Assembly: GCA_030068145.1 (NCBI GenBank)
Contig: JAPJBO010000576.1
Location: 62,001 to 126,000, forward strand
Length of the DNA: 64,000 nt
Direction: 5' to 3'
Origin: Diplonema papillatum
Lineage: Eukaryota > Euglenozoa > Diplonemea > Diplonemida > Diplonemidae
A model generated the notes under the pieces. The model saw nothing but the letters and a program-made list of their open reading frames with translations. It searched no databases and had not been told where the DNA came from. Below, in pieces: positions 553 through 64,000 of the stretch; the first letter of the stretch is position 1; the number at the start of each line of letters is the position of its first letter. The translations under genes were made by a program, and so were the position numbers.

Positions 553-14769
<14,217 letters not shown>

Positions 14770-18577: not shown

Positions 18578-19867
18578 CTACACGACGTACGGGCAGAAGA
18601 TGTACGGCACCCGCTTCCTGTACTCGTTCCACACCGCGCGGCCGTACTTGCGCGTGCACAACTCGTCGTCGCGCATCGCCCGATGGATGAGGAGCACGGC
18701 GAAGTAGATGGGGTAGAAGTAAGGCACGACGCTGTCCTTCCCGCAAAGCATCGACCAGCCGAGACCTTGCAGCCAATCGCCGGTGTAGTTGATCTTCCGG
18801 GCAGCCCCCCACCAGCCGGAGACGAGCAGGTCGCGCCCGGGAACCCCGGTCGGCATGGTCTGCAGGTGCGCGACGGCAGGGTCCTTCGGATTCGTGCGGA
18901 ACGCGTCTTTTTCGCTGTTCGAGAGGCGGAAGACGACGAACCCGGCGAGGCTGACGGCGAAAAGGAACAACGCGAGACCGGAGGACAAATTCGGGTCGTG
19001 GTCCACCAAATACCGGGCGTGCAGAGTGTACGTAAACGGAACCCAGGCCAGGTCTCCGAAAGCCAGCATGTACCCGAAGCCGTCGGAGGTGATGTCCATC
19101 GTGGTGAGGATGGCCTTCTCGTTGTAAAGCGCGTCCCAAATGTACAACCCCTCCCCGACAACAATAAACAGCATCGACCAAGACACCGAACCGTGCACTT
19201 TGTACTGCGCCTGCGCCATCGCGATGTTGACCACGCACCAGCCGATGAGCCCCGGGCGCAGCTCGCAGAACTCCTTGATGTCGAAGGACCCGACGCGGGG
19301 ATTCAGCTCCCGCCCGACGAAGAAGTCGTAGACGGCGTTTCCGGTCGTACCCCCAGGAGCGAGCAAAGCCTCGTCCGGGCCTGATCGGAACGACCGAAGG
19401 TAAACCCACACGGACAAAAGCAGCGAAACGACGAAGCTCGCGAAGGCGAGCTGCAGGTACCGATCGTAGATGAAGGTCAGGTCCACGAACAAAAGGGGGA
19501 CGATCGACACCCAGAAGGCCGAGTGGCCGCTGATTCGGTACTGCAGTCGGTCGGCAGGCCGCGCCTTCGCCGGCGCGTCCGGCAGGACAACACCGCTCAC
19601 GATCGTCGCCGGGAGAACACGCTCCAAGACGACCTGGAAGATGCACCACCCTACAACCGCTGCGAACGCCTCGGCGGACACGAAGTCCGCGGGGCTCGGC
19701 AGCGCAAAGGACGCGACACCGCTTACGTCAACGCCTTCGACGCACTGCGTCTTGTTGCACGCCACGTACAGAACCGCGATGACCAGCGGCAGGCTCACCG
19801 TCGTGGCCAACGCGCCGGGCGGGCCGCCGAACTCATAGTGGGGCGCCGGCTTGGCTTCTTTTGCCAT
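18578..19867 (-). CDS. ERG24: Delta(14)-sterol reductase (C-14 reductase, ERG24/LBR/TM7SF2 family)
   Basis: NADPH-dependent reduction of the C14-C15 double bond in sterol synthesis, at the endoplasmic reticulum membrane. The frame is intronless, 429 residues from ATG at 19867, close to the usual 430-450. Multiple hydrophobic segments are spread from residue about 20 onward. Family signatures are all present: YDFFVGRELNPR, FDIKEFCELRPGLIGW, the LTTMDITSDGFGYMLAFGDL stretch, LVSGWWGAARKINYTGDW, and a C-terminus with YRKRVPYIFCP. GELNPR- and FCELRPG-type motifs favour C-14 over C-24(28) or 7-dehydrocholesterol reductases. Three truncated copies of the last segment follow 3'. Its upstream flank is also tandemly duplicated. 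Confidence 0.93.
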   Translation of the reverse strand: MAKEAKPAPHYEFGGPPGALATTVSLPLVIAVLYVACNKTQCVEGVDVSGVASFALPSPADFVSAEAFAAVVGWCIFQVVLERVLPATIVSGVVLPDAPAKARPADRLQYRISGHSAFWVSIVPLLFVDLTFIYDRYLQLAFASFVVSLLLSVWVYLRSFRSGPDEALLAPGGTTGNAVYDFFVGRELNPRVGSFDIKEFCELRPGLIGWCVVNIAMAQAQYKVHGSVSWSMLFIVVGEGLYIWDALYNEKAILTTMDITSDGFGYMLAFGDLAWVPFTYTLHARYLVDHDPNLSSGLALFLFAVSLAGFVVFRLSNSEKDAFRTNPKDPAVAHLQTMPTGVPGRDLLVSGWWGAARKINYTGDWLQGLGWSMLCGKDSVVPYFYPIYFAVLLIHRAMRDDELCTRKYGRAVWNEYRKRVPYIFCPYVV

Positions 19868-19889
19868 CGGGGGCGGCTGAGAGGATTCC

Positions 19890-20290
19890 TGCTCGTAAGT
19901 GGCGATCTTTTCTTGGCAACAGGGTTCAAAGATCTCCCCCCCCGAGGCCTTTTTTTCGCTGGCCGGTCTTCGCTCGTGGGTCGAGATAAGGTATGGCGAG
20001 GCACATTATTGGCTTGGTTTGTCGCCGTGACACATGCTCGTAAGTGGCGATATTTTCTTAGCAACAGGGTACAAAGACCTCCCCCCGAGGCCTTCATAAA
20101 GAAGTTCTTTCAGATGTTTAAGCGAAAGCGTTGGCTCATAAGACCATCTCTTGAAAGAGGCATAATCTTTATGCCTGTTTCCACCAAAGATGGCCAGTTT
20201 TCGCTCGTGGGTCGAGATAAGGTATGGCGAGGCACATTATTGGCTTAGTTTGTCGTCGAGACACAGACCGAGCGGATTCCTGCTCGTAGG
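19890..20290 (+). repeat. Tandem duplication in the sterol reductase 5' flank
   Basis: Two units share GCTCGTAAGTGGCGAT, TTGGCAACAGGG or TTAGCAACAGGG, CCCCCCGAGGCC, and then the TCGTGGGTCGAGATAAGGTA block followed by GCGAGGCACATTATTGGCTT. A decayed third unit is at about 20540-20640. The unit likely includes the reductase promoter zone. Confidence 0.8.
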
Positions 20291-22779: not shown

Positions 22780-27566
<4,787 letters not shown>

Positions 27567-31364: not shown

Positions 31365-31880
31365 TTACAGTTGTCCAAGGACGTGCTCCGCGCTGCTGAC
31401 TTCGAACGCTTTCTTGTCGACGAAGATCTTCTTGACGATCTTGTCCTCGACGATCATCGCGTATCTCTCGGAGCGGGTGCCTCCGAATGCAGCCGTCTCC
31501 TTGACCAACCCGAGCTTCTTCGTGAAGGAAGCATCGCCGTCGGCGAGCATGAGGATGTCTCCAGCCTTCTGATGCTTGCCCCAGGCACTCATGACGAAGG
31601 CGTCGTTGACCGCCAAGCAGACAACCTTGTCAACACCCTTCTCCTTCAATTTGTCGGCGTTCTCGATGAACCCGGGGAGGTGCTTTTCGGAGCACGTCGG
31701 GGTGAACGCTCCCGGAACCGCAAACAGGACCACTTTCTTCCCTTTGAAGATGTCGTCGGTCGTCGTCGGCTGCATCCCCGAGTCGCCGAGAACGGAGAAC
31801 TCGTGGTCGGGGAGCGGCTGTCCTGCTTCGATCATTGCTTCTTCGGTTTTTCTCTTTTTGAGCGAAGGCTCCTGGGGCAT
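31365..31880 (-). CDS. Peroxiredoxin, Prx5/PrxII type
   Basis: Thiol peroxidase that reduces hydrogen peroxide and alkyl hydroperoxides. Intronless, 171 residues from ATG at 31880, a normal length. The family motif FAVPGAFTPTCSEKHLPGF places the peroxidatic Cys at about residue 63, with the conserved Pro and Thr of the PxxxTxxC site. VVCLAVNDAFVMSAWGKHQK and the TRSERYAMIVEDK strand are also typical of the atypical 2-Cys/1-Cys Prx5 group. I see no organelle targeting peptide; the N-terminus (MPQEPSLKKRKTEE) is basic and could act in nuclear entry. The 5' flank carries dispersed repeats. Confidence 0.95.
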   Translation of the reverse strand: MPQEPSLKKRKTEEAMIEAGQPLPDHEFSVLGDSGMQPTTTDDIFKGKKVVLFAVPGAFTPTCSEKHLPGFIENADKLKEKGVDKVVCLAVNDAFVMSAWGKHQKAGDILMLADGDASFTKKLGLVKETAAFGGTRSERYAMIVEDKIVKKIFVDKKAFEVSSAEHVLGQL

Positions 31881-31929
31881 ACGACTGTTAAAGACTCCTT
31901 TTTCCTGGAGGCGTGTGGGACTTTTGTTT

Positions 31930-32080
31930 GTATAACATGCAGGGTCAAAACCTTGTGTCTTTTTGGTATTAAAGGGCAGACTATTTTTATTTTTTGATCC
32001 GCGTCCCCCGACCCCTGAAAATTTTCCGCGCGCGCGCGCAAAAAAAAATAGTTTTTTTAAAAAAAATAGTTTGGCAAGCC
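31930..32080 (+). repeat. Dispersed repeats R3 end and R7-type A/T hairpin
   Basis: ATGCAGGGTCAAAACCTTGT then GTCTTTTT matches the reverse complement of about 41205-41236. The following GGGCAGACTATTTTT, GATCCGCGTCC, alternating CG and poly-A plus TAG matches the reverse complement of 40957-41045. The two repeats therefore travel as one unit. Confidence 0.8.
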
Positions 32081-32259
32081 ACCTGGCCTGTGGGTTCCTG
32101 TGTGGAGGGGGGTGGTCTTGGTGGCAAGCGGTCGGGGGGTGGTGGCCCGGAGGGGTACGCGTCCCTCACTTTGATTCTTCGGCGACTTTTTGCACTGGGA
32201 AATAACCGTCGTCTGCATGTGCTCAGGCTTTTTGTTGTACGGAGGGACCAGGTGAGCCT

Positions 32260-34139: not shown

Positions 34140-34215
34140 ATTTGGTGTGGTCCACCCTGGAGTTTTTCCGGGTTTGTGCCGGGTTTGTGCCGGGTTTGTA
34201 CCGGGGGGGGGGGGG
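34140..34215 (+). repeat. Dispersed repeat R4: GTGCCGGGTTT units ending in poly-G
   Basis: GTGTGGTCCACCCTGGAG, TTTTTCCGGGTTTGTGCC units and a poly-G run. Also at 40880-40940 and 62806-62867; the last is directly followed by repeat R5. Confidence 0.85.
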
Positions 34216-34863
34216 GTCGTTGTTGTTGGTGATGGTTTTGTGGGATGAAGTAGGGGAAAGAAAATTTCTTTTTGCGGTGGTCTCCGCTGGCCTGGTAGTC
34301 CGTGCTACCTCCTTTCTTTTACACTCGTTCTCTTCTCTACTCACTACTGTACGTACTCTTTCGCTCTTTTTCTCTCTTTGGCTAGCCAAAACAAAAGACT
34401 TCTGCGACCGACACCACGAACACATTCGCAATGAATGTGGCCCTGGGCCCCCCACGTGCATACATGTTGAGCAGGGGTTGCCATGTAGCCCGTATCGGTC
34501 TAAGTCAACACTGTTACTTTCATGGGATGTTCACCGGGGAAGGGTCCGACCTAACCGTTAGTCAACAGCAACGTCGAAAAGGGGGAGGGGGAAAGAAGAT
34601 AGAAAATCGGTGGGGTTGACAAGCTCGTAAGTGGTTGTTTGTAGATCAGTACAACCTTAAACTACGCCTAGCACACGGCCAGGCGGTCTTTAACGAACCT
34701 CCAGTACATTAAACGCAAGTCGGCAGGTCGTCATCAGACGCGGCACGAAAAGCAAACGTCGCCGACGCAGCACTTCAGCAATGCGTCCTCTTATTTACAG
34801 TGGGCACCGTACCTGAACTCAGCCCCGCTAGGCCGAGATTCCGGCTGTTCCGCAGGGCATACA
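34216..34863. other. Between R4 and the RT-USP stop codon, no gene
   Basis: Could hold the 3' UTR of the RT-USP element. No poly-A tail or second ORF is recognised. Confidence 0.35.
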
Positions 34864-37011
34864 TCACTCCCCGAAGTTGACGTACGTGCAGAGACGTTCG
34901 TGCACATGCAGGCCTCTGAGGCCCCGGAACAATCGACCGTCCTTGGTGCGGTCGGTGAAGCAGCGCTTGCAGCGCAGTTCCGGGGGGTCCTTGGGCTGTT
35001 CAGGTGGCTGGTCGTGTGCTGCCAAAGCAGCGTCGGAGGGCATGGGTTGGCAAGATGCCAGATTCGCGTCGGTACAGGGCGGACTAGAAGGTATCAGCGG
35101 GACCTGCAGTGGGACTGTTGTTGCCATCATAGTAGGTGATGGCAAGCGTTCGACCACCTCGTGGGACGCATTGGGGATTCGTACGTATGCGGCGAGGTAT
35201 ATGTCAGTCCAAGGAACGTTGTCGACGTGCAAGACTCGTTCGTCATCGAAAAGCGTCCATTGCATCCCTTGCAAGACGTATGTGACAAAATGGCCGCTTG
35301 TCGTATTTTGTCCCGTGTGTACAACCACCGCGGAAAGGCGTAGTGTGCCGTCCGGCAGTCGCAGGAGGAGCGGTAGGGAAGCGTCATTCCGTAGTCTCGC
35401 ACCATCGCTTGCGTAAATGCCGAACTGCAACAGCAGGCACTCGGACGCCACATGCACGTTCATGGTCTCCACAACGGATCCAGCAGCTCCGCAGTCACAC
35501 CTCCTCTCCGGATTCATAATTCCACGAACACAGAATGCGTCCTCCACCGGCCTTCCACGAGGGACTTGAAGACACCGTACCAGTTGATGACGGGTGGATG
35601 TGGCGCCACAGGCGATACATCGTGTTGTTGTCGTCATCGTGTTTTCCAGGCACGTCTGGAAAAGCCGCCAATCCGGACAAGCCTCCGTCGTCTCGTCCGG
35701 CCCTAGGGAGCTGTCTGTCCTATCCAGAATTGCAACCAAAGCCTCGTGCGCGTCGTGCTGTCGCGCATCGCAGAACATTGGGAGCATGGCGAGGATTGTT
35801 TCAGCCCCTATCCTTCGGCTGTCTTGGCTGAGCTGGCTCCTCCCCGAGCGCGAGCTTACCAGTAGGACGAAGTACGTCAAGAACTCCTTCAGGAACCCCC
35901 GGAAATTCAGAGGATTCTGCGCAAGACTGTAATACATGTTCTCGATCGGTTCCACACGCAACAAGAGCTGCAGTACCGCATTGAGAAAACAAGTATTCCC
36001 AAGGTTCGGGAGGCCGGCAGGTTCAAACGGTGACGGGTCGAACATGCGGGAGGGCCGTTGGATACAAATGACAGCTTGGCGGCCGACAGCGGGTGATGAT
36101 TCCAGCATGTCAGGCACTGCATGGGACACGTCGCAGCGCCGTTTCGGTCCAGGCTGAGCAGCCTCATCGTCTCTGCGCTTGCGCTTTCCTTTAGTCGTCC
36201 CATCCTGGGGCACAAGATCACGACGCTGCTTCGGAGCCGCAGTGGAAGGCCGATCGGGCGTATCTCGTTCCGTTCGTGTGCCAGGTCGAGGACGGTCCCT
36301 GTATCTCACGAAGGCCTTCTCAGCGAGCAGCCTCTCGACCGCTTGGTCGATGGACTCCAAGTCGGGCATCTGCAGAATGCGTTCCACTTCATGTACGAGC
36401 CACACGAAGTGCGCACGGATCTTCTCGCAGTGATCACCGAACTTCGCTTCTGGGTACGTGTCTAGTAACCATTTACGAAACCCACTTTTTAAGACACTCT
36501 TGCGGTACCCCCGTCTCATGAGCTTCAGCACCGTGTTGTTCATCTCGGTCTTAAAGTCATGGAGGTTGTTCGCAATCCTGCCGTTACGCACAAGCGCTCC
36601 GATGAGGATACTCGACCCAAAGTTCGATGGAGCCGTGGAGAGCACGGATGTGTACGCCAAGGGCTGGTATCGGTATGCCTTCGCTTTGTCGAGGACTGAC
36701 AGGCGCATGTATCTCCTCCCGGACATCTCGGAGACTTCATGTCGAATCCGAATACCAAGGAAAGTGGCGTCCCCAACCTTGGCGTTTGTCTGTTTGTACC
36801 TCATGTTGTACACAGATTCCGGTGGGGGTTTTGTGCCGAAACACAACAGATCGTCAATGAAGCGGCGTGTCAGGCTAAGCAATGCCGCACGTTGCGTGTC
36901 CCCGTCTTCCAAGAGTCGCATCATGTATTTTCGCTCTTTCGCATAGCAAAAGAGGTTGGCGATGTCCGGGGAAGCGTTCGCACCCATTGGGATGCCTAGC
37001 GTCTGCCTCAT
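34864..37011 (-). CDS. Reverse transcriptase fused to ubiquitin-specific protease and zinc finger, 5'-truncated
   Basis: One uninterrupted frame of 715 codons. Residues 1-235 are the C-terminal half of a reverse transcriptase: GIPMGANASPDIANL, then TRRFIDDLL, whose D53-D54 are the polymerase catalytic pair, then the thumb-like region. A basic linker (about 236-325, KGKRKRR) follows. Residues 331-612 are a USP-type deubiquitinase: Cys box GLPNLGNTCFLN (C341), RQHDAHEAL, zinc pairs C465xxC468 and C505xC507, and His box SGHFVTYVLQGMQWTLFDDE (H574, D589/D590). The end carries C681xxC684...H702xH704xxxC708, a zinc finger of the kind found in retroelement proteins. All catalytic residues are present. 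The fingers/palm start of the RT is missing because the frame meets a poly-G run and a foldback element at 37020. ATG at 37011 is internal, not a true start. Confidence 0.88.
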   Translation of the reverse strand: MRQTLGIPMGANASPDIANLFCYAKERKYMMRLLEDGDTQRAALLSLTRRFIDDLLCFGTKPPPESVYNMRYKQTNAKVGDATFLGIRIRHEVSEMSGRRYMRLSVLDKAKAYRYQPLAYTSVLSTAPSNFGSSILIGALVRNGRIANNLHDFKTEMNNTVLKLMRRGYRKSVLKSGFRKWLLDTYPEAKFGDHCEKIRAHFVWLVHEVERILQMPDLESIDQAVERLLAEKAFVRYRDRPRPGTRTERDTPDRPSTAAPKQRRDLVPQDGTTKGKRKRRDDEAAQPGPKRRCDVSHAVPDMLESSPAVGRQAVICIQRPSRMFDPSPFEPAGLPNLGNTCFLNAVLQLLLRVEPIENMYYSLAQNPLNFRGFLKEFLTYFVLLVSSRSGRSQLSQDSRRIGAETILAMLPMFCDARQHDAHEALVAILDRTDSSLGPDETTEACPDWRLFQTCLENTMTTTTRCIACGATSTRHQLVRCLQVPRGRPVEDAFCVRGIMNPERRCDCGAAGSVVETMNVHVASECLLLQFGIYASDGARLRNDASLPLLLRLPDGTLRLSAVVVHTGQNTTSGHFVTYVLQGMQWTLFDDERVLHVDNVPWTDIYLAAYVRIPNASHEVVERLPSPTMMATTVPLQVPLIPSSPPCTDANLASCQPMPSDAALAAHDQPPEQPKDPPELRCKRCFTDRTKDGRLFRGLRGLHVHERLCTYVNFGE

Positions 37012-37079
37012 GAGAACCCTATTGACCAGGGGGGGGGGGGGTGTGGGGCTAATTTATTCCGGGGTGGCTTTTTTCCCGA

Positions 37080-38489: not shown

Positions 38490-39106
38490 CGGGTAAGCGG
38501 GGTTTGCGGGTTAGGGTATGCGGAGTTTGCAGGTTAGGGTACGCGGGGTTGCGGGTTCGGGTATGCGGGTTTGCGAGGTTAGGGTATGCGGGTTTGCGGG
38601 TTTGGGTATGCGGGTTTGGGTATGCGGGTTTGCGGGGTTCGGGTACGCGGGGGGTTAGGGTTTGCGGGGTTAGGTACGCGGGTTTGCGGGGAGGGTATGC
38701 GGGTTTGCGAGGTTAGGGTATGCGGGTTTGCGGGTTAGGGTATGCGGGTTTGGGTATGCGGGTTTGCGGGGTTTGCGGGTTAGGGTTTGCGGGGTTAGGG
38801 TACGCGGGTTGCGGGGTTCGGGTATGCGGGTTTGCGAGGTTAGGGTATGCGGGTTTGCGGGTTAGGGTATGCGGGTTTGGGTATGCGGGTTTGCGGGGTT
38901 TGCGGGTTAGGGTTTGCGGGGTTAGGGTACGCGGGTTTGCGGGTTCGGGTATGCGGGTTTGCGAGGTTAGGGTATGCGGGTATGCGGGTTAGGGTATGCG
39001 GGTTTGGGGCGGGTTTGCGGGGTTTGCGGGTTAGGGTTTGCGGGGTTAGGGGAGCGGGTTGCGGGTTCGGGTTTGCGGGTTTGGGTATGCGGGTTCGGGT
39101 ATGCGT
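38490..39106 (+). repeat. GCGGGTTTGCGGGTTAGGGTAT minisatellite, telomere-like
   Basis: About 610 bp built from GCGGGTT, TGCGGGTTAGGGTATGCGGG and related 6-7 bp modules, with higher-order repeats of about 115-130 bp (38700-38820, 38820-38940, 38940-39060). GGGTTAGGG occurs many times. On the plus strand it gives long frames rich in Gly, Val, Arg, Cys and Tyr that are artefacts. Confidence 0.93.
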
Positions 39107-39345: not shown

Positions 39346-39408
39346 AAAAGCCTGAAAAAAAGCTCACCCAGGAATAACATTAGCTCGACCCGGGGGGGGG
39401 GGGGGGGG

Positions 39409-40510
39409 GGGGGTCCCGGGTTTTTTTATTTTTGTCTCCCCAGCACCCGCTAGCAACCTTGGTCGTGGAGATTTCAGGCTTCGCGGTGGATTTTGCCACG
39501 TTTCATGATCGTCTGGTGCTCTGTGGGGGTTTGTCCCGCTCTTTGCGGTCCCTCGCCCTTCTGTCATGTTCAGCCTACGGGCTTCGGTATCGTGAATATT
39601 TGTCGGTTTGAGGCCCCTTCCGTAGCTTGGAAAACGGAAGAGGAGCAGCATCTCCATCGGATCAGAACGAGGGACAGAAGTTCCACGCTCAACCGCTGGT
39701 GTCGCAGCGGAAACAGAAAGTTCGGCAACAAGCGGTTCGGACGGCGGGTTCCCCGCCATCAATGTACAACCGGTTTTCCCTCGCCTAGGTGCTGTCGGAT
39801 GGCTAAAGAGGCTGAGCACTGGCTACCTTTGGGTCCGCATCCTTTCAACTGTGGCTGACCAAGCCGCTGTTTGAGCTCTGCAGGGGTTTTCGATGCACTC
39901 CAAAATGCGGGTACCAACAACCCCGGCAGCTGGGAGGAATGGCTACTGAGCATGGGTGCGTGGCGTTCGTGGACGCGCAACTGCGTGCAAACAAGCGTCA
40001 CGCAATTACCAGAGACAGGTCACCACTCGTTCTGCAGTGGAGTTAGCATTAGCTCAATGTGTCGGGAGCAGTAGTTGTCGACTGAAAAGTAAGCACGTAC
40101 CGCGGATGCAGAACATCGATGCAGACGATGAGTGCCGCAAATGCAGGGAATTCGAGGCCGTTCTACGAGCAGGCAAGATGGCAAGCGAGAGAGCGTGCCG
40201 TACCTCAGGCAGGTCGCTCGAAAACGGGAACCCGAAATGGAAGATTCACCCCCAGGAACAATACCCAGCGGACTGGAAGCGCAGGCAGGCCCGGATGGAA
40301 GCATGGGGTGAAGCAGAAGAGACAGAGGAGCGGAGAAACGGGGCCGCACCAGTGGCAGACCCGGACGTTGGGGTTCAACAATTGAAGAAACACCGACTCG
40401 GGCATACCGGCCGAGAACAGCCAATCATGGAACCCAGGGCACAAGGGAGGCTACGGCGCGGTGGTGAAGTAACGCTCGCTCGCTAGCATCCGGCAAGAGC
40501 CAGCATGACA
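39409..40510 (+). repeat. Repeat R5, copy 1 (about 1.1 kb)
   Basis: Starts after a poly-G run with CCGGG, poly-T, CTCCCCAGCACCCGCTAGCA and stays colinear with 62866-63962 to CGCTCGCTAGCATCCGGCAA. Small indels differ between the copies and shift any frame, so it is not under protein-coding constraint. No known transposon domain is seen in either copy. Confidence 0.9.
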
Positions 40511-40864
40511 CACGAATTTGGAAATGATGCTTCATTTGGAAACAGCGAGGGCAGAGGGTTAATCTGCTTGTACTAGGCTCCTCGGTTCCCGTAGTATCAG
40601 GAGAGTTTGAGAGGCAATTGCTGGCTGGTGGTCGGTTGTAGTCCGTTGCGTCAAGCACAACCGGGCTTGCCCTCTGGAGGCTTTGGAAAATAGTGGTTCC
40701 TGTCTGTATTCAGCGCTGCAATGGCAAAGCATTCCGGGTACCTTCTGCGGTGGACCTAGCCGCCTTACATATTAATTGGTGTTGGTTTTACTCGACAGGA
40801 CCCTGGTGCAGTCGGTTTAGCTTAATTGCAGCGATCACCTGCCATAACCTGAAGGGGTGGTGCA

Positions 40865-43531: not shown

Positions 43532-44425
43532 TCAGGACATGGCGGCATGGATCGGTTCGAGAGCGGGGTGGACCGCGACGTTGTCAGCTACCCAAACCTT
43601 CAAGAAAGGCTCGCCATCTCTTATGAGCTTAAGCAGCTGCGGATTTCGAGCTTCGTACATTGTGGCGATGATCCGAGCCATCGAGGCGTCAGATTTGATT
43701 GGGCAGTGATGCGTTCTGCAATGATCGGCTGAACCGGTGTAGTGGATGAAAGAAGAGTGGGGAACTTCGGCCGAGAGGGCTTGGTGAGCAGTTTGTATGT
43801 GGCTGAACGAGTCGTCTGCGAAGATGACCGCGTGATCCGAAAAGTCCTGGGCGAGCGCTTTGAGGAACATGCCCTTGTTCGCCATTGACAGATGCCAGAT
43901 TCCGTCGTTGTGGTGCAGTCCTGGCCAATCGTTCCACCAAGGCTGCCACAACTTGTCCATGCGCTCTTGCACTTTTTTCACATCCGGGTTGAGATCCGTG
44001 AAGCGGAGCCCGTCCACCGTGTCCAGCTGCTTCTTTGTTCCTGGAGACAGCGTGTTCATCCTCGCCGTTGCTGCAACAACCTTGGTGCCTTTCGCTTGCC
44101 AGGCGGTCACCACTTCAGGTATCTGCTCGTCGCAAGGCTTGATGTTAACCTGCTCGAAAATCGCATCGACCACTTTCAGCAAGGAAGACTGGGGGTCCTT
44201 CTCAATTCCGAGTTGCTCGAAACGCCCGGCATACCGCTCGACGATGTCCGCCAGCCAGTACGTGCTGCCGAAGGTGCAGTTTTCGGCATCCTTGACGGTC
44301 CAGGTCGTGTCGTCCAAGTCGAGCGCGAGAATTATCTTCTCGGGCGACTTCACGCTTTGCAATGCGGCTTCGAGGTGGCGGCTGAGCGCCGCACCCAAAT
44401 CAGACTCAACCTTCTCAATCTGCAT
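43532..44425 (-). CDS. HAD-superfamily protein, DUF2608-like
   Basis: 297 residues from ATG at 44425, intronless. HAD motif I is LALDLDDTTW (nucleophile and acid/base Asp). Motif II is VVAATARMNTLSPGTKKQLD (Thr in TAR), and the acidic motif is HAVIFADDSFSHIQ. This arrangement, with NKGMFLKAL before the last motif, resembles the DUF2608 group otherwise known mainly from bacteria, so a phosphatase is likely but the substrate is unknown. The GTG four codons upstream is not used. No targeting peptide is evident. Bacterial-type family membership may point to lateral transfer; I could not test this. Confidence 0.8.
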   Translation of the reverse strand: MQIEKVESDLGAALSRHLEAALQSVKSPEKIILALDLDDTTWTVKDAENCTFGSTYWLADIVERYAGRFEQLGIEKDPQSSLLKVVDAIFEQVNIKPCDEQIPEVVTAWQAKGTKVVAATARMNTLSPGTKKQLDTVDGLRFTDLNPDVKKVQERMDKLWQPWWNDWPGLHHNDGIWHLSMANKGMFLKALAQDFSDHAVIFADDSFSHIQTAHQALSAEVPHSSFIHYTGSADHCRTHHCPIKSDASMARIIATMYEARNPQLLKLIRDGEPFLKVWVADNVAVHPALEPIHAAMS

Positions 44426-44544
44426 CGGTTTCCCCACTTCCTGCTGGATATTGTTGTAACACGCATATTGGGGGAAAATACTCGAGGGACTGCCGTGTGC
44501 TCATTTCGAGGGAGGCTAGAGGGGGAGAAAACAATACAACTACA

Positions 44545-56810: not shown

Positions 56811-58297
56811 ATGGTCAGGAAAGGCGTGATTGTCAGTGATGAAGTGTGCGATTCAGAAAGCACATCGTCCGAGACAGAGTCGGACAGCTCGTCGACGGAT
56901 GAGGAAGAGGTGAAGCCGAGAAAGTCCCCTTCCCGTGCGCAGAAACCTGAAAAGCAGACTGGGAAGCCTCAGCAGCCGGTAGATGGGTGGACAGAGGGTA
57001 TGGGGCCTGTGGATGACTTCCTGAGAAAGTTGCCTGCGGACACCTTTCGCACGTGCACCGTCGTTGATTCCCTGGAGCAGTACGACGACCACCGAAGCAG
57101 GCGCGAATTCGGGTCCATACCCGGGGTGACACTGAGACTGAGAAACGAGCAGAAGGGGTGTGAATGCGCCTACATCGCGTTGTGGCGTGCACTTGCATGG
57201 CGAGCTACCGGAAAGACAGATCTCCCGACTAAGGCTGTCGTGAGATGCTTCACCTTGCCAGGAAGTACGCACAGCGTGGGCACTGGCTGTATTTCGACAA
57301 CTACTATACCAGTGTCCCACTAATGCTTGCTCTATCCAGCATGGGGTTCCATTCGTGTGGTACAGTACGGTCGAACCGGAAAGGGCTCCCATTACTTCGC
57401 GAGAAAAAGGAGAAGAAACGTGGCCGACCAAGTAAGATCGAGAAGGCCAAGGCACCGCAGCGTGGGGACTCTTTTTTCATGCAATCCGGACCGGTCACTT
57501 ACGTGGAGTGGCACGACAAACGGGAGGTCAAAATGTTGTCCACCCTCCCGATCGGGGCATCCACAACTGAGGTCCAGAGACGACCCAAAGGTTCTTGTGG
57601 AAGAAAGGAACCAGTGCAAAAACCCGATATCGTCGAGTCCTACAACGCGTACATGGGCGGTGTCGACCTCAGCGACCAGCTCATGGCCAGTTGTGGCCGG
57701 CTCATGAAGGGTCGGAGGTGGTACCTGAAGCTTTTCTTCTACTTGTTGGAAGTTTCGTGCCTCAACGCATCTGTTATTTGGAAACATCTCCACAAAGACG
57801 ATCTGCAGAGCTTTTCCTTCGCTAACTTCAAGCGTGCGCTTATTGCGGGGCTCCTGAACGCAGATCCTGCCGATGACAGCAGCACAGAACCGGATGAGGT
57901 AAGTGCCGGCCCCGAACCCACGACTCCCACCAAATCGCAGCAGGACAGCGCACCGTCGACCCCATTCTCGCCAAGTACTCCGTCACGTGCTGACGATCAT
58001 CCGTGCCGGCTTGACGGTAAAACCCACTACCTTGTGCCCCTGGACCGCCGGACGACTTGCAAGTGCCACGTGCAGCGCAAGGACGTCCAATACATGTGCA
58101 AGCAGTGTGGTGTGCCATTGTGCCCTGCACCCTGCTTTGGGCGGTTTCACACCAAGCAGGACCACAAATTCGACGACCCGAACTTGAAGGACGCGCAGCG
58201 CCGACTCAAGGATCCCAACGGGCGCCCATTCAAGCGCGGGAGGAAGCGCAGTCTCCAGTCAAACAACAGCCCTGCGCACAACAAGCGCAAGACCTGA
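56811..58297 (+). pseudogene. Deleted and frameshifted piggyBac transposase
   Basis: 56811-57240 codes the acidic N-terminus and the start of the protease-like segment (SRREFGSIPGVTLRLRNEQK, then ECAYIALWRAL). It then jumps to GKTDLPTKA, equivalent to residue about 532 of the intact copy, so about 390 codons including the first catalytic Asp are gone. A one-base shift near 57243 leads into the frame 57245-58297: LYFDNYYTS (second Asp), YMGGVDLSDQLM (third Asp), and a C-terminal Cys-rich domain CKCHV..YMCKQCGVPLCPAPCF. It cannot make an active enzyme. Confidence 0.92.
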
Positions 58298-58923: not shown

Positions 58924-61900
58924 CCCAACTCCGACCAAGCACCTACAGGTTAATTTCCACTTTTTCCTATTTTTCATTTTTATAGAGTGCCTTCGCTCTT
59001 TTGGGCATTCTGGGGCTGGAATTTTGCGATTTCGAAGCATATCTTTCCATTGCCGCCCTTGGAAGGCGAAATTTTGACATGATGTTGCACTAGTCTGTCA
59101 TCGTCTTCTCGCTTATGACCGTCTCTAATTCGTCGACAACGTTTCACCGCAACCTTGACAATCTTTTGTTTTCTCGCGTGGTTTAGATTTCCTTCCTAGG
59201 TTGGGCTTGAGCAAAAGAGAAGAAGAAAGGCGGCAGACGTCATTTTGCGTGCGTTCCGGGGGTAGGGGGTTGGAGTGATGGCGAGATAACGGGCAAGACG
59301 CAGGAAATTGAGGTACGGGGCAGGTGGGCAGTTCACGCAACTACTGGCCACTGCAGTCACTTTCATCAGTAGACTCGGTATACGTCAGACGCACTCCTTT
59401 GAGTGTGGGAGGGCGCCCCTGCTTGCAAGGGCGGCCGCCTCGTTTCTTCAAGCGCTGGGTCCCAGGAGTTTCCGGCTCGTAGTAATGGTGGTTCTTGAGG
59501 GTGTGAAACCGGGTAAAACACGGAGCGGGACACAGAGCCACGCCACATGTTTTGCAGACATATTTCGTCTTGACCAAACGAACATGGCATTTGCACGCAA
59601 CGCGGGTGTCTGTTTCCAGAATGGCATGGAACTTGCCATCCAGGCGCGACGGGTGGTCGCTAGCCCGAGGTGTGCGCGTTCCGGGGCTGAAGTCCTCAGT
59701 ACTGCGGTTGTCAGCAAGTAACCCGCGGATGAGCTCTTTTCTGAAGTCCTTGAAGGGTAAGGACCCGCGATTCTTACCAAGACGCTTGTACAAGATAAAA
59801 CTGTTCAACGCAGACACTTCGAGCAAATAAAAGAAGACTTTCATATACCATCGTTTGCCCTGCATGAATCGTGTCGCCCGGGCAAGGTACTGGTCGCAGC
59901 GATCTACCCCCCCCATGTGTTTGTTGTAAGCAACCACGATGTCTGGCTTACTGACCTTCAACCGCTTTCCCCCCTTGCAGCGACGCTCAAGCTCGGTCAT
60001 TGTTGTTCCAATGGGGAGTGTTGACAACATGCGGACTTCACGCTTGTCAACCCACTCCAAGAACGTGATCGGCGAACTTTGGCGATACTGGCAATGGCCG
60101 CGTTTCGGGGCCGCAGCCTTATCCGCTTGGGATGGGCGGCCGCGCTTCTTTTGGGACTTGCTAAAAAGTGGGATCCCGTTCCGATTTTTGCGGACAGTTC
60201 CGGCCGCGTGGAATCCCAAGGTGTATAATTTTAGCATGAGGGGAATGCTTGTGTAGTAGTTGTCCATGTACATGTGCCTTCCTGAGTATGCATACAGAGC
60301 CGCAGCTGCAAGAAGTTCACGCTCACCAACGTTCACGGGGCCAGGGTTAGTATCCGTGTCAATCTTACCGGTATACACTGACGATACCAATGTGTAACCA
60401 GTCTGTGACTCAGCCAGAACAAAACACTTCAAACCGAATCGATGCCGTTTCATGGGCATGTATTGCTTGAAGCTGACACGACCTTTGTACTTGATGATCG
60501 ACTCATCAAAGCTAAGTTCTTTATCGGGAGCATAGACATCCCGCCATTGGAGAGACACAAGCTGGAAAATATCTCTTATCTTGATGAGTCGGTCCGGGTG
60601 TTCCTTCTTTCCACTGAGGGGGTCTGTGAAGTGCAGCGTCCTGTGAATATCGTGCCACCTTTTCCTGGACATGGTTTCAGAAAAAAACGCGCATTGTTCG
60701 ATAGGGTCCACGGACCAGTACGAGTAGAGATCCTGTTTCACGGACAACCCCATCGCGTATGTGACAGCACACCAGCGAAGAAATTCCGCAATATCGGGTG
60801 CTTCGTACGAGATACCCTCTTTCCCTGCAGCATACACACTCATGTGCCCAATGATCTGGGTGACCACCAGGTCGGTGAACATGCATCTGAAGATGTCAGT
60901 GGGGGAGGAATCCTCATCAAGGTCGTAGGACGGATTCGGTCCGGTCTTCTTGGCGTTGAAAGGGAATTCGAGGTTGGGCTCGACTTTGCTGCTCCACGAC
61001 AAGGACTTGATCGCTGCACCTGCTGCCTTGACCGCAGCGCTCTCAGTATTCGGTGGGCGGCCTCGCGGTGCTGGGTTTGCGGGGGGCTTCTGTGCCGGTC
61101 CTTTTCGTGGTCGGCCGGGGCGCTTCGGTGCAGGCTTTGCGGAGGGCTTCGGCGCCTGTTCTTTTGGTGGCCGGCCGGGGCGCTTCGGTGCAGGCTTTGC
61201 GGAGGACTTCGGCGCCTGTTCTTTTGGTGGCTCGCCAAAAAAAATGTTCATAAAGTGGCCGAGATCACCGCTCTGAACCCGCGGGTTGGCCAGGAACACG
61301 ACGTTGGCCGGGTGGGGTCGGTCTTCGCCTCGCTCGACTGAGCCGGTTCCTCTCAGCACGGCCCAGTTGTACAGCGCTGTGTACACTGTCTCCGGATTGG
61401 GCTGGAATCCGATACCGTGTTGGAGGCAGAAGCTCGATACCTGATAAGTGTCCAGCTCCGGTAAGCGTGCCACACTCCTGCAACGCACGTCGAAATGTTC
61501 GCGGGCGAAGCTGAGAATGTTCAATGCCGATGGCATCGCAAAACTTCCCTCCATCGCTCGCATGAGTGCGATGTACCCGCACTCCACCCCGCTCTGCTCG
61601 TCACGCAGCTGCAGTGTCACACCCCGGATACCGCCGAACTCACGTCGCGACCGTTGCCTGTCCCAGTTCCCGCAAGAGTCGACCACTGTCACCCGCCCAA
61701 GCGCGGTGGCGTCGAGATGATGCACTTGTTCGCGCACTGTCCTTCCCGACCTGTTGTTGTCGTCATCGTCATCCTCTTCCTCTTCTTCATCCTCTTCTTC
61801 TTCCTCGTCCTCTTCCTCTTCCACCTCTTCTGCTTCCTCGTTGTCCTCTTCTTCTGTCGACCCCACACTCTCCATATCCGTGGCCGCCCGCTTCCTTCCA

Positions 61901-62176
61901 GACATTTTGTACTTTTCACTGCCCAAGTTCCTGGATTGTTTCGACTGTTGATGACAAGGCATTGAAAAAGCCGGTTTTCCGGGGGTTTCCCCAATCTCGT
62001 CACTTGGTTTCAATCGTCATTGCTGACGAATTTTTGACATTCGAGGGCGGCAATGAAAAGGTTTGCTCGAAATGGGTGAATTCCATATTTTCGGGAATTT
62101 TTTGGCGCCTCCTGAGCACCCCTACAGAAAAATCCAGATTAAACCGGACGTATATGTCCGGTTGGTCGGAGTTGGG
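58924..62176 (-). mobile_element. Intact piggyBac-type transposon, 3253 bp
   Basis: TTAA at 58920-58923 and 62177-62180; 14-bp perfect terminal inverted repeats CCCAACTCCGACCA / TGGTCGGAGTTGGG. A near-palindrome around CCGGACGTATATGTCCGG lies just inside the right end. One large ORF on the minus strand. Ends differ from those of the neighbour at 56494-58868, so the two belong to different subfamilies. Only 55 bp separate them, including both TTAA sites. Confidence 0.95.
59341..61962 (-). CDS. piggyBac transposase with AT-hooks, Cys-rich domain and N-terminal protease-like segment
   Basis: 873 residues, uninterrupted, from ATG at 61962 (a TTG 17 codons upstream is ignored). Residues 33-70 are almost all acidic. 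Residues 91-245 form a compact domain with GVECGYIALMRAME (C128) and DLGHFMNIFF (H236), spaced as a Cys-His pair of a papain-like or OTU-like fold. Residues 250-305 hold three RPGRPPK/RPGRPRK/RGRPPN AT-hooks. DDE catalytic residues: D486 (LSFDES), D567 (YMDNYYTS), D687 with D690 (MGGVDRCDQ). The C-terminal zinc-binding Cys-rich domain (790-820, CKCH..YVCKTCGVALCPAPCF) binds terminal repeats in this family. All features needed for cut-and-paste transposition at TTAA are present, so it may be active. Confidence 0.95.
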   Translation of the reverse strand: MPCHQQSKQSRNLGSEKYKMSGRKRAATDMESVGSTEEEDNEEAEEVEEEEDEEEEEDEEEEEDDDDDNNRSGRTVREQVHHLDATALGRVTVVDSCGNWDRQRSRREFGGIRGVTLQLRDEQSGVECGYIALMRAMEGSFAMPSALNILSFAREHFDVRCRSVARLPELDTYQVSSFCLQHGIGFQPNPETVYTALYNWAVLRGTGSVERGEDRPHPANVVFLANPRVQSGDLGHFMNIFFGEPPKEQAPKSSAKPAPKRPGRPPKEQAPKPSAKPAPKRPGRPRKGPAQKPPANPAPRGRPPNTESAAVKAAGAAIKSLSWSSKVEPNLEFPFNAKKTGPNPSYDLDEDSSPTDIFRCMFTDLVVTQIIGHMSVYAAGKEGISYEAPDIAEFLRWCAVTYAMGLSVKQDLYSYWSVDPIEQCAFFSETMSRKRWHDIHRTLHFTDPLSGKKEHPDRLIKIRDIFQLVSLQWRDVYAPDKELSFDESIIKYKGRVSFKQYMPMKRHRFGLKCFVLAESQTGYTLVSSVYTGKIDTDTNPGPVNVGERELLAAAALYAYSGRHMYMDNYYTSIPLMLKLYTLGFHAAGTVRKNRNGIPLFSKSQKKRGRPSQADKAAAPKRGHCQYRQSSPITFLEWVDKREVRMLSTLPIGTTMTELERRCKGGKRLKVSKPDIVVAYNKHMGGVDRCDQYLARATRFMQGKRWYMKVFFYLLEVSALNSFILYKRLGKNRGSLPFKDFRKELIRGLLADNRSTEDFSPGTRTPRASDHPSRLDGKFHAILETDTRVACKCHVRLVKTKYVCKTCGVALCPAPCFTRFHTLKNHHYYEPETPGTQRLKKRGGRPCKQGRPPTLKGVRLTYTESTDESDCSGQ

Positions 62177-62805: not shown

Positions 62806-64000
62806 TGTGGTGTGATCCACCCTGGAGTTTTTCCGGGTTTGTGCCGGGTTTGTACCGGGGGGGGGGTCCGGGTTTTTTATTTTTCTCTCCCCAGCACCCG
62901 CTAGCACCCTTCGTCGTGGAGATTTCAGGCTTCGCGGTGGATTTTGCCACGTTTCATGATCGTCTGGTGCTCGTGGGGGTTTGTCCCGCACTTTGCGGTC
63001 CCTCGCCCTTCTGTCATAATCAGCCTACGGGCTTCGGTATCGTGTATATTTTGTCGGTTTGAGGCCCCTTCCGTAGCTTGGAAAACGGAAAGAGAAGCAA
63101 GCATCTCCATCGATTCAGAACGAGGGACAGAAGTTCCCACGCTCAACCCGCTCGGCTGTGCCATCGGAACAGAAGTCGGCAACAAGCGGTTCGGACGGGC
63201 GGGTTCCCCGCCCATCAAGTACAACCGGTTTTCCCTCTCGCCTAGAAGGTGCTGTCGGATGGCTAAAGATGGCCTGAGCAGACTGCTACCTTTGGTTCCG
63301 CATCCTTTCAAACTGTGGCTGACCAAGCCGCTGTTTGAGCTCTGCAGGGGTTTCGATGCACTCCAAAATGCGGGTACCAACAGCCCCGGCAGCTGGGAGG
63401 AATGGCTACCGAGCATGGGTGCGTGGCGTTCGTGGACGCGCAACTGCATGCAAACAAGCGTCACGCAATTAGCAGAGGCAGGTCACCACTCGTTCTGCAG
63501 TGGAGTTAGCATTAGCTCAATGTGTCGGGAGCAGTAGTTGTCGACTGAAAAGTACCGCGGATGCAGAACATCGATGCAGACGATGATGCCGCAAATGCAG
63601 CTTTCTGCGAGCAGGCAAGATGGCAAGCGAGAGAGCGTGCCGTACCCCAGGCAGGTCGCTCGAAAACGGCGACCCGAAATGGAAAATTCACCCCCAGGAA
63701 CAATACCCAGCGGACTGGAAGCGCAGGCAGGCCCGGATGGAAGCATGAGGTGAAGCAGATGGGACAGAGGAGCGGAAAAACGGGGCCGCACCAGTGGCAG
63801 ACCCGGACGTTGGGGTTAAACAATCGAAGAAGAAGTGTAAAGACGAGGAAACACCGACTCGGGCACACCGGCCGAGAACAGCCAATCATGGAACCCAGGG
63901 CACAATGGAGGCTACGGCGCGGTGGTGAAGTAACGAAGCTCGCTCGCTAGCATCCGGCAAGAGCCAGCATGACACATGAATTTGGAATTGATGCTTCATT
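62806..64000 (+). repeat. R4 plus repeat R5, copy 2 (runs to the window end)
   Basis: R4 (GTGTGATCCACCCTGGAG, TTTTTCCGGGTTTGTGCCGG, poly-G at about 62857-62867) joins directly to R5, which is colinear with 39409-40510 at roughly 95% identity by eye. The copy continues past the window edge (the GAGCCAGCATGACACATGAA end also matches about 40497-40516). Confidence 0.9.

Follow-up and report, generated by a model that had tools for sequence, protein, structure and literature searches.

A ubiquitin-specific protease domain in the polyprotein of a Penelope-like retroelement of Diplonema papillatum

Penelope-like elements (PLEs) with an N-terminal endonuclease, Chlamys and Naiad, reportedly possess a CxC motif and are said to be biased to insertion in simple repeats, both as described by Craig et al. 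in 2021. Here we describe a PLE of the marine protist Diplonema papillatum whose polyprotein also contains a ubiquitin-specific protease (USP). It lies in a 64,000-nucleotide stretch of contig JAPJBO010000576.1 (assembly GCA_030068145.1, positions 62,001 to 126,000 of the forward strand), the whole of which we call the window. The element shares with Chlamys and Naiad the N-terminal GIY-YIG endonuclease, the CxC motif, a telomerase-like reverse transcriptase (RT), 5′ truncation and insertion in simple repeats; the USP between the RT and the C-terminus, the poly(C) target and the diplonemid host are its own. Chlamys elements in Ectocarpus are reported in the accessible part of PMC12477816. The preliminary description of the window had recognized a retroelement RT, which holds, and had left the type, now seen to be Penelope-like, unnamed.

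Proteases of the OTU and Ulp1 types are known in mobile elements. According to the accessible text of PMC2836005, the DNA transposons Ginger1, Mutator and Helitron carry OTU or Ulp1 domains, and a Trichomonas vaginalis DNA transposase (transposase_11) joined to Peptidase C19 was noted in 2010. In these cases, as here, a mobile-element protein is joined to a ubiquitin- or SUMO-pathway protease, and the T. vaginalis domain is of the same C19 class; however, they are DNA transposons without an RT, and that text names a single T. vaginalis protein, in contrast to tens of RT fusions here. No DDE domain is matched by Pfam in the related proteins P0012 and P0031 or in the window frame, which is not what a DNA-transposon type would give. 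No PLE-USP fusion is described in the accessible parts of PMC6431247, PMC3482391 and PMC7658794; the main text of the Ectocarpus PLE paper (PMC12477816), as far as accessible, does not mention ubiquitin, and that of the D. papillatum genome paper (PMC10161547), supplements aside, mentions neither Penelope nor ubiquitin. In the accessible text of the literature searched, a scope with subscription papers and Repbase outside it, we found no report of a USP within the RT polyprotein of a retroelement. The earlier impression that a USP in an RT polyprotein was new stands to that extent, but a USP in a mobile element has its precedent in T. vaginalis (PMC2836005). In another Penelope-like protein, P0029, a stretch past the RT (about residues 690-900; GHWYTVHWE...QTDSWSCGYWALN) looks Ulp1-like by eye, with no Pfam protease match.

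A polyprotein with a predicted deubiquitinase

The open frame in the window (Table 1) contains, as first described, the C-terminal half of an RT (GIPMG and FIDD motifs), a USP with intact Cys box (GNTCF), QHDAHE, zinc pairs (CxxC and CxC) and His box (SGHF), and a terminal finger. The frame is real and runs on the minus strand, the strand having been left unstated at first; the 715 codons first given for it are counted from the Met codon at 37011. The full frame of 729 codons belongs to a truncated copy and is not a whole ORF. The plus strand of the same interval has many stops. Pfam UCH, the USP class, matches residues 347-612 (E 2e-23). The RT segment is uncalled by Pfam but evident from homologues, and a profile built in this analysis matches residues 10-218; the closest named proteins are from D. 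papillatum. Only the C-terminal part of the RT is present because this copy is 5′-truncated at a poly(C) tract. That an N-terminal RT exon might lie further upstream and be spliced in, the poly(C) before residue 9 serving as 3′ splice site, was considered and rejected, the copies showing a truncation junction; tblastn of P0001-P0011 against the window gave no N-terminal RT match. Rfam gave no matches in the window at gathering scores, a result of little weight for a truncated copy.

The missing part can be seen in the 1499-residue sister protein P0012 of D. papillatum, in which GIY-YIG (residues 86-129), RT (approximately 503-972), UCH (1100-1365) and a C-terminal finger occupy one frame. A CxC motif (CPCQ..GH at residue 388) lies between endonuclease and RT, and its pattern was found in 10 of 14 proteins and missed in four, P0025 among them. 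GIY-YIG precedes the RT at the Pfam cut-off in P0012, above it in P0040, P0056 and P0085, and slightly below it in P0001 (20.9 bits) and P0031; it is not in the window copy because of the 5′ truncation. The single polyprotein has the order GIY-YIG endonuclease, CxC motif, telomerase-like RT, linker, USP, zinc finger. The Diplonema group is without Cys pairs before GIY-YIG, as is reported for Chlamys, and P0031 has them, as is reported for Naiad; the putative Chlamys label follows from the missing motif. Fingers like that of the window frame end P0012, P0025 (which has two) and the USP-less P0004 (all by eye), and no Pfam match above cut-off was found for the C-terminal finger. An AlphaFold2 model of P0001 residues 359-999 has telomerase reverse transcriptase (TERT) as its closest fold: by structure only, TERTs fill ranks 1-17 by VIA Z (14.2-11.3) and other RTs follow from 10.7. 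Unlike TERT, the element has an endonuclease and a USP, is mobile and occurs in many copies.

To what extent is the fusion repeated in the genome? A search of 271.4 Mb in 2910 contigs, whose repeat counts are lower bounds, gave at least 34 matches to P0012, of which at least 18 are full-length (1499 residues), free of internal stops and, after rounding, 100% identical; six further matches cover residues 1-1498 at 86%, also stop-free. The window family has at least 62 matches, and the stretch from residue 9 to 729 recurs uninterrupted by stops and at 99-100% identity in at least 41 places besides the window copy, in open frames of 730 to 1570 codons (13 of them 1562). These counts dispose of an assembly error or chance as the source of the fusion, and of the earlier proviso that no other copy might be found. 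A host gene lying downstream of an RT remnant was likewise rejected, since each of the 20 window-family copies fetched has the finger and then a shared 3′ end after its USP; the P0012 frame and the end some 650 nt past the stop support the first proposal that the USP is inside the element. Possible segmental or assembly duplicates are L045 and L046 (both flanks alike) and L010 and L020 (3′ flank alike). The window frame is almost certainly the 3′ portion of a PLE that has been active recently and has an N-terminal endonuclease.

The USP domain is predicted to adopt the USP fold with zinc-bearing fingers and the triad in place, and its nearest folds include USP46, USP12, USP1 and SAGA Ubp8. Its fold and catalytic residues are like those of the catalytic domains of human USP46, USP12 and USP2 (22-26% identity in structural alignments), although these do not sit in a retroelement polyprotein. 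The catalytic Cys and His are invariant in 49 of 49 fusions. In two comparisons the USP has a dN/dS of 0.18-0.21 (upper bounds 0.25 and 0.30), so the dN/dS check proposed at the outset bears out a USP under purifying selection. The USP is very probably an active deubiquitinase.

Spread and history of the fusion

Three protein searches gave 157 proteins (about 8000 best candidates were scored in the first two, with 120 of 131 matches from the third), and at least 58 of the 157, D. papillatum gene models and fragments counted, have an RT with at least part of a USP. They fall into two groups. Fourteen are diplonemid-type, comprising P0012-like and P0013/P0014-like lineages of D. papillatum as well as P0005, P0024 and P0025; P0026 and P0027 are diplonemid-type transcript-assembly proteins by their EukProt names, and P0026 extends into an apparent Cys box. 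The other 44 surround P0031 (Naiad-type), mostly from ENA contigs, and 42 of them have a complete USP; P0062, with its 523 member sequences and a 4-Mb contig, is in this group. Seven contigs of metagenome-assembled genomes or symbionts with bacterial labels in GTDB (L001-L007) encode Naiad-type RT relatives, L001 with a USP (P0053), and are most likely mis-binned eukaryotic DNA. A viral source was rejected after two viral-contig scans gave 40 and 9 pattern matches and no relatives.

Separate RT and USP trees were built, as suggested in the preliminary description. In a 99-row RT tree, drawn from 154 RT-matching proteins, the USP label needs 12 changes, with gene models such as P0002 and P0020 scored as USP-less; eight redundant D. 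papillatum rows, two thirds of P0101-P0157 and all short-RT rows except the window and four others were left out. Eight USP-less rows inside the Naiad-type group end at or just past the end of the RT, and most of these look truncated; P0089, with 760 members, may truly be without a USP. In a 34-row RT tree diplonemid-type USP rows are supported at 100/99 and Naiad-type rows at 79/84, and a topology that unites all USP-bearing rows in one clade is rejected (log-likelihood lower by 153, approximately unbiased (AU) test p 6e-50). A USP tree with five cellular USPs supports the Naiad-type at 100/98 and the diplonemid-type at 91/64, and places all element USPs on one side at 96/84. When the UCH loci of Diplonema are added, L063 being placed among the elements and the long branches P0024, P0025, L061 and L062 dropped, support is 100/100 and 67/38, respectively, and a single element-USP clade is not rejected (p 0.318). 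The USP trees leave the number of captures unsettled. RT and USP distances are correlated (r 0.866 for 47 rows and 0.892 for 42 Naiad-type rows; none of 2000 permutations as high), and therefore the USP has long travelled with its RT.

Instead of two captures, a single USP could have been acquired before the RT clades split and lost in all intervening lineages. The placement of all element USPs on one side and the unrejected single clade speak for this, but the RT tree rejects one USP clade and has USP-less lineages between, so that a single acquisition would need several losses or a domain swap; we consider it rather unlikely.

Insertion at poly(C) tracts and the role of the protease

All 20 fetched window-family copies, that of the window included, agree in sequence (98.97-100%) as far as about 650-660 nt past the stop, where ...ACAACGA is followed by C residues and the copies diverge. 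A C-run of at least 6 stands at 19 of these 3′ ends (the exception is L042) and, in the sister family, at 15 of those 16 that a pattern located among 20 loci (no end located in L008, L009, L011 and L026). Downstream 14-nt flanks are mostly distinct, with 18 different among 20 in the window family and 14 among 16 in the sister family. Truncated 5′ junctions, judged by eye, are C-runs in six of nine window-family copies (L028, L031, L033, L037, L038 and L047, but not L039, L045 and L046) and likewise in six of nine sister-family copies (L009, L016, L021, L023, L026 and L027, but not L012, L014 and L015). The 5′ ends lie at many positions and the 3′ end is common, which indicates 5′ truncation on insertion, a PLE trait according to the accessible text of PMC8969392. 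The G13 and G14 runs flanking the window copy are two of ten G- or C-runs of at least 9 in the 64 kb. A dispersed target repeat is empty within 25560-25700, where it has tracts of C15 and C18; in L023 the repeat has two insertions, one per tract, L016 and L033 are also occupied, and the 3′ flank of L032 matches. Junctions and truncation together form the pattern expected of target-primed reverse transcription into poly(C). By this chemistry, which we infer from anatomy and junctions, the endonuclease would nick a poly(C)/poly(G) tract or the DNA next to it and the RT would copy the element RNA from the nick, synthesis often ending early.

Two sister-family copies (C186 and C1928) begin at a common point, about 2.4 kb before the Met; at C186 a C-run adjoins this start. 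Pseudo-long terminal repeats or a tandem arrangement are a PLE feature in the accessible text of PMC3846280 and PMC8969392; the 3-kb upstream stretches of C186 and C242 contain no repeat of the 3′ region, and at C1928 the 3′ end of another copy lies about 0.4 kb upstream of the start.

Why would a retroelement keep a deubiquitinase? The preliminary description had suggested two roles for it, to shield the element's proteins from proteasomal turnover or to alter host ubiquitin signals. The USP, tied to the RT, might work in cis, freeing the element's own RT or ribonucleoprotein (RNP), or else proteins around the insertion, of ubiquitin, and this would counter ubiquitin-dependent degradation or silencing. 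Protection of the RT or RNP in cis is the least certain step of this proposal, and we advance it tentatively, as the likeliest role but somewhat short of an even chance. A PLE polyprotein, insertion at poly(C) and a cis-acting USP together form, in moderate confidence, the best explanation as a whole. Several points weigh against it. Compared with telomerases, the P0001 RT model has low TM-scores (0.20-0.28, normalized by query length), and the endonuclease match of P0012 is weak, its 22.6 bits just equalling the cut-off. Ser occupies the third triad position in three of 49 fusions and the oxyanion-box Asn is altered in six of 49. The USP is less constrained than the RT (dN/dS approximately 0.05, three to four times lower) and the endonuclease part (0.09), and in one of two comparisons its interval overlaps that of the linker (0.174-0.509). 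The deposited D. papillatum gene models P0001 and P0002 pass straight to the finger, either from the RT or from early in the USP, and are thus without most or all of the USP; this looks like a predicted intron that spans the domain, and the accessible text of the genome paper (PMC10161547) warns of spurious introns near repeats. P0004, from another source and with an RT 59% identical, has RT and finger and no USP. These three proteins may owe their form to spurious introns, to loss or to genuine splicing; if they are true transcripts, the USP may be optional, being dispensable or removed by splicing in some cases.

The main rival to protection in cis is action in trans on chromatin or repair proteins, such as mono-ubiquitinated histones or clamp and repair factors, which would open target sites or ease quiet repair and leave the element's own RNP unprotected. 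The structure titles of two of the nearest folds name FANCD2 (USP1) and the nucleosome (Ubp8), and a repair role was proposed by Bao and co-authors, in the accessible text of PMC2836005, for the Ulp1 and OTU domains of DNA transposons; we judge action in trans to be on the unlikely side. Processing of the polyprotein by the USP, splitting the RT from the endonuclease or finger in the manner of some viral OTU proteases, is very improbable: USPs cleave after the C-terminus of ubiquitin, and ten of twelve polyproteins tested are without an LRGG-like site (P0050 and P0054 have matches); GG occurs once in eight of the twelve, and Pfam scans of P0012, P0031, P0025, P0040, P0056 and P0085 found no ubiquitin-like domain. 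Both activities do coexist in the TYMV PRO/DUB, as the accessible text of PMC5695851 describes. That the USP is a decaying passenger, a host gene transduced once, might be read from its dN/dS of three to four times that of the RT and from the USP-less P0004. The upper bounds on that dN/dS, the Cys and His kept in all 49 fusions, co-divergence with the RT and the two deep clades oppose this, and with catalytic residues and constraint retained the passenger reading is largely refuted and scarcely credible.

Features of the window and significance

The features of the locus are collected in Table 1. Elsewhere in the window, two transposase frames at 57233-58297 (plus) and 59341-62016 (minus) match Pfam DDE_Tnp_1_7 (E 2e-28 and 4e-66, respectively), and we take them to be piggyBac-type. 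Host-like genes encode a redoxin (31365-32165), an ERG4/ERG24 family protein (18578-20005) and a DUF2608 protein (43532-44500), all on the minus strand. An (AGT)n array of approximately 2.3 kb on the plus strand (about 2950-5260) is read as poly-Ser/Val and poly-Leu/Tyr/Thr frames, and an array of GGGTTA/GGGTATGCGGG-like units at 38491-39105 resembles degenerate telomere repeats. A 1.17-kb repeat is present at 39404-40536 and 62857-64000 (90.6% identity), and both copies have a G-run at or next to their start; (CCGGGTTTGTG)n blocks are dispersed at 34166, 40894 and 62831, the first and last adjoining G-runs.

Table 1. Coordinates of the element copy and its target repeat in the window
Feature	Position	Strand	Basis
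5′-truncated Penelope-like element copy, 5′ end 37028, 3′ end 34217	34217..37028	-	homology to 19 other copies, from residue 9 to ...ACAACGA before the C-run
Open frame, stop to stop, 729 codons plus stop; residues 1-8 flank, 9-729 element	34864..37053	-	homology to other copies begins at residue 9
Reverse transcriptase, C-terminal part (GIPMG, FIDD), residues 9-240	36334..37029	-	RT profile, homologues
Linker, RT to USP, residues 241-339	36037..36333	-	low confidence in structure model
USP domain, residues 342-626	35176..36030	-	
Catalytic Cys355 codon	35989..35991	-	Cys in 49/49 fusions
Catalytic His588 codon	35290..35292	-	His in 49/49 fusions
Asp603-Asp604 codons (third triad position and neighbour)	35242..35247	-	Asp/Asn 46/49, Ser 3/49; then Asp 49/49
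Zinc-finger-like motif CxxC..HxHxxxxC, C-terminal, residues 695-722	34888..34971	-	by eye
3′ untranslated region	34217..34863	-	common to 20/20 fetched window-family copies, 98.97-100% identity
Poly(C) tract at 3′ junction (plus-strand G14)	34203..34216	.	
Poly(C) tract at 5′ truncation junction (plus-strand G13)	37029..37041	.	
Empty copy of dispersed target repeat, two poly(C) tracts	25616..25692	.	other repeat copies hold insertions (L016, L023, L033); L032 has common 3′ flank

Element USPs also bear on how the genome is annotated. A PF00443 scan of the genome listed 149 UCH matches, of which 112 are like element USPs in score and extent; on this classification element copies outnumber other USP matches among the matches listed. 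L063, fetched as a cellular UCH locus, proved to be an element USP, and P0012 and P0014 are deposited under the names of host enzymes, ubiquitin carboxyl-terminal hydrolase 16 (putative) and 26, respectively.

The element places a PLE in a diplonemid, and its USP-bearing and USP-less relatives constitute a natural experiment in which ubiquitin restriction of retrotransposition can be tested, in protists and other eukaryotes. It is conceivable, though we lean against it, that retroelements of this telomerase-like kind acquired an active deubiquitinase two or more times, in the two deep clades, that they need the USP for transposition and defeat with it a ubiquitin-based host restriction by clearing ubiquitin from their RNP or from the insertion site, and that they would form a widespread unnamed class, so abundant that the parasite accounts for most USP matches scored in the D. 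papillatum genome. With the fusion present in two distant branches of this element class, such parasites may tamper with the ubiquitin of the host cell.
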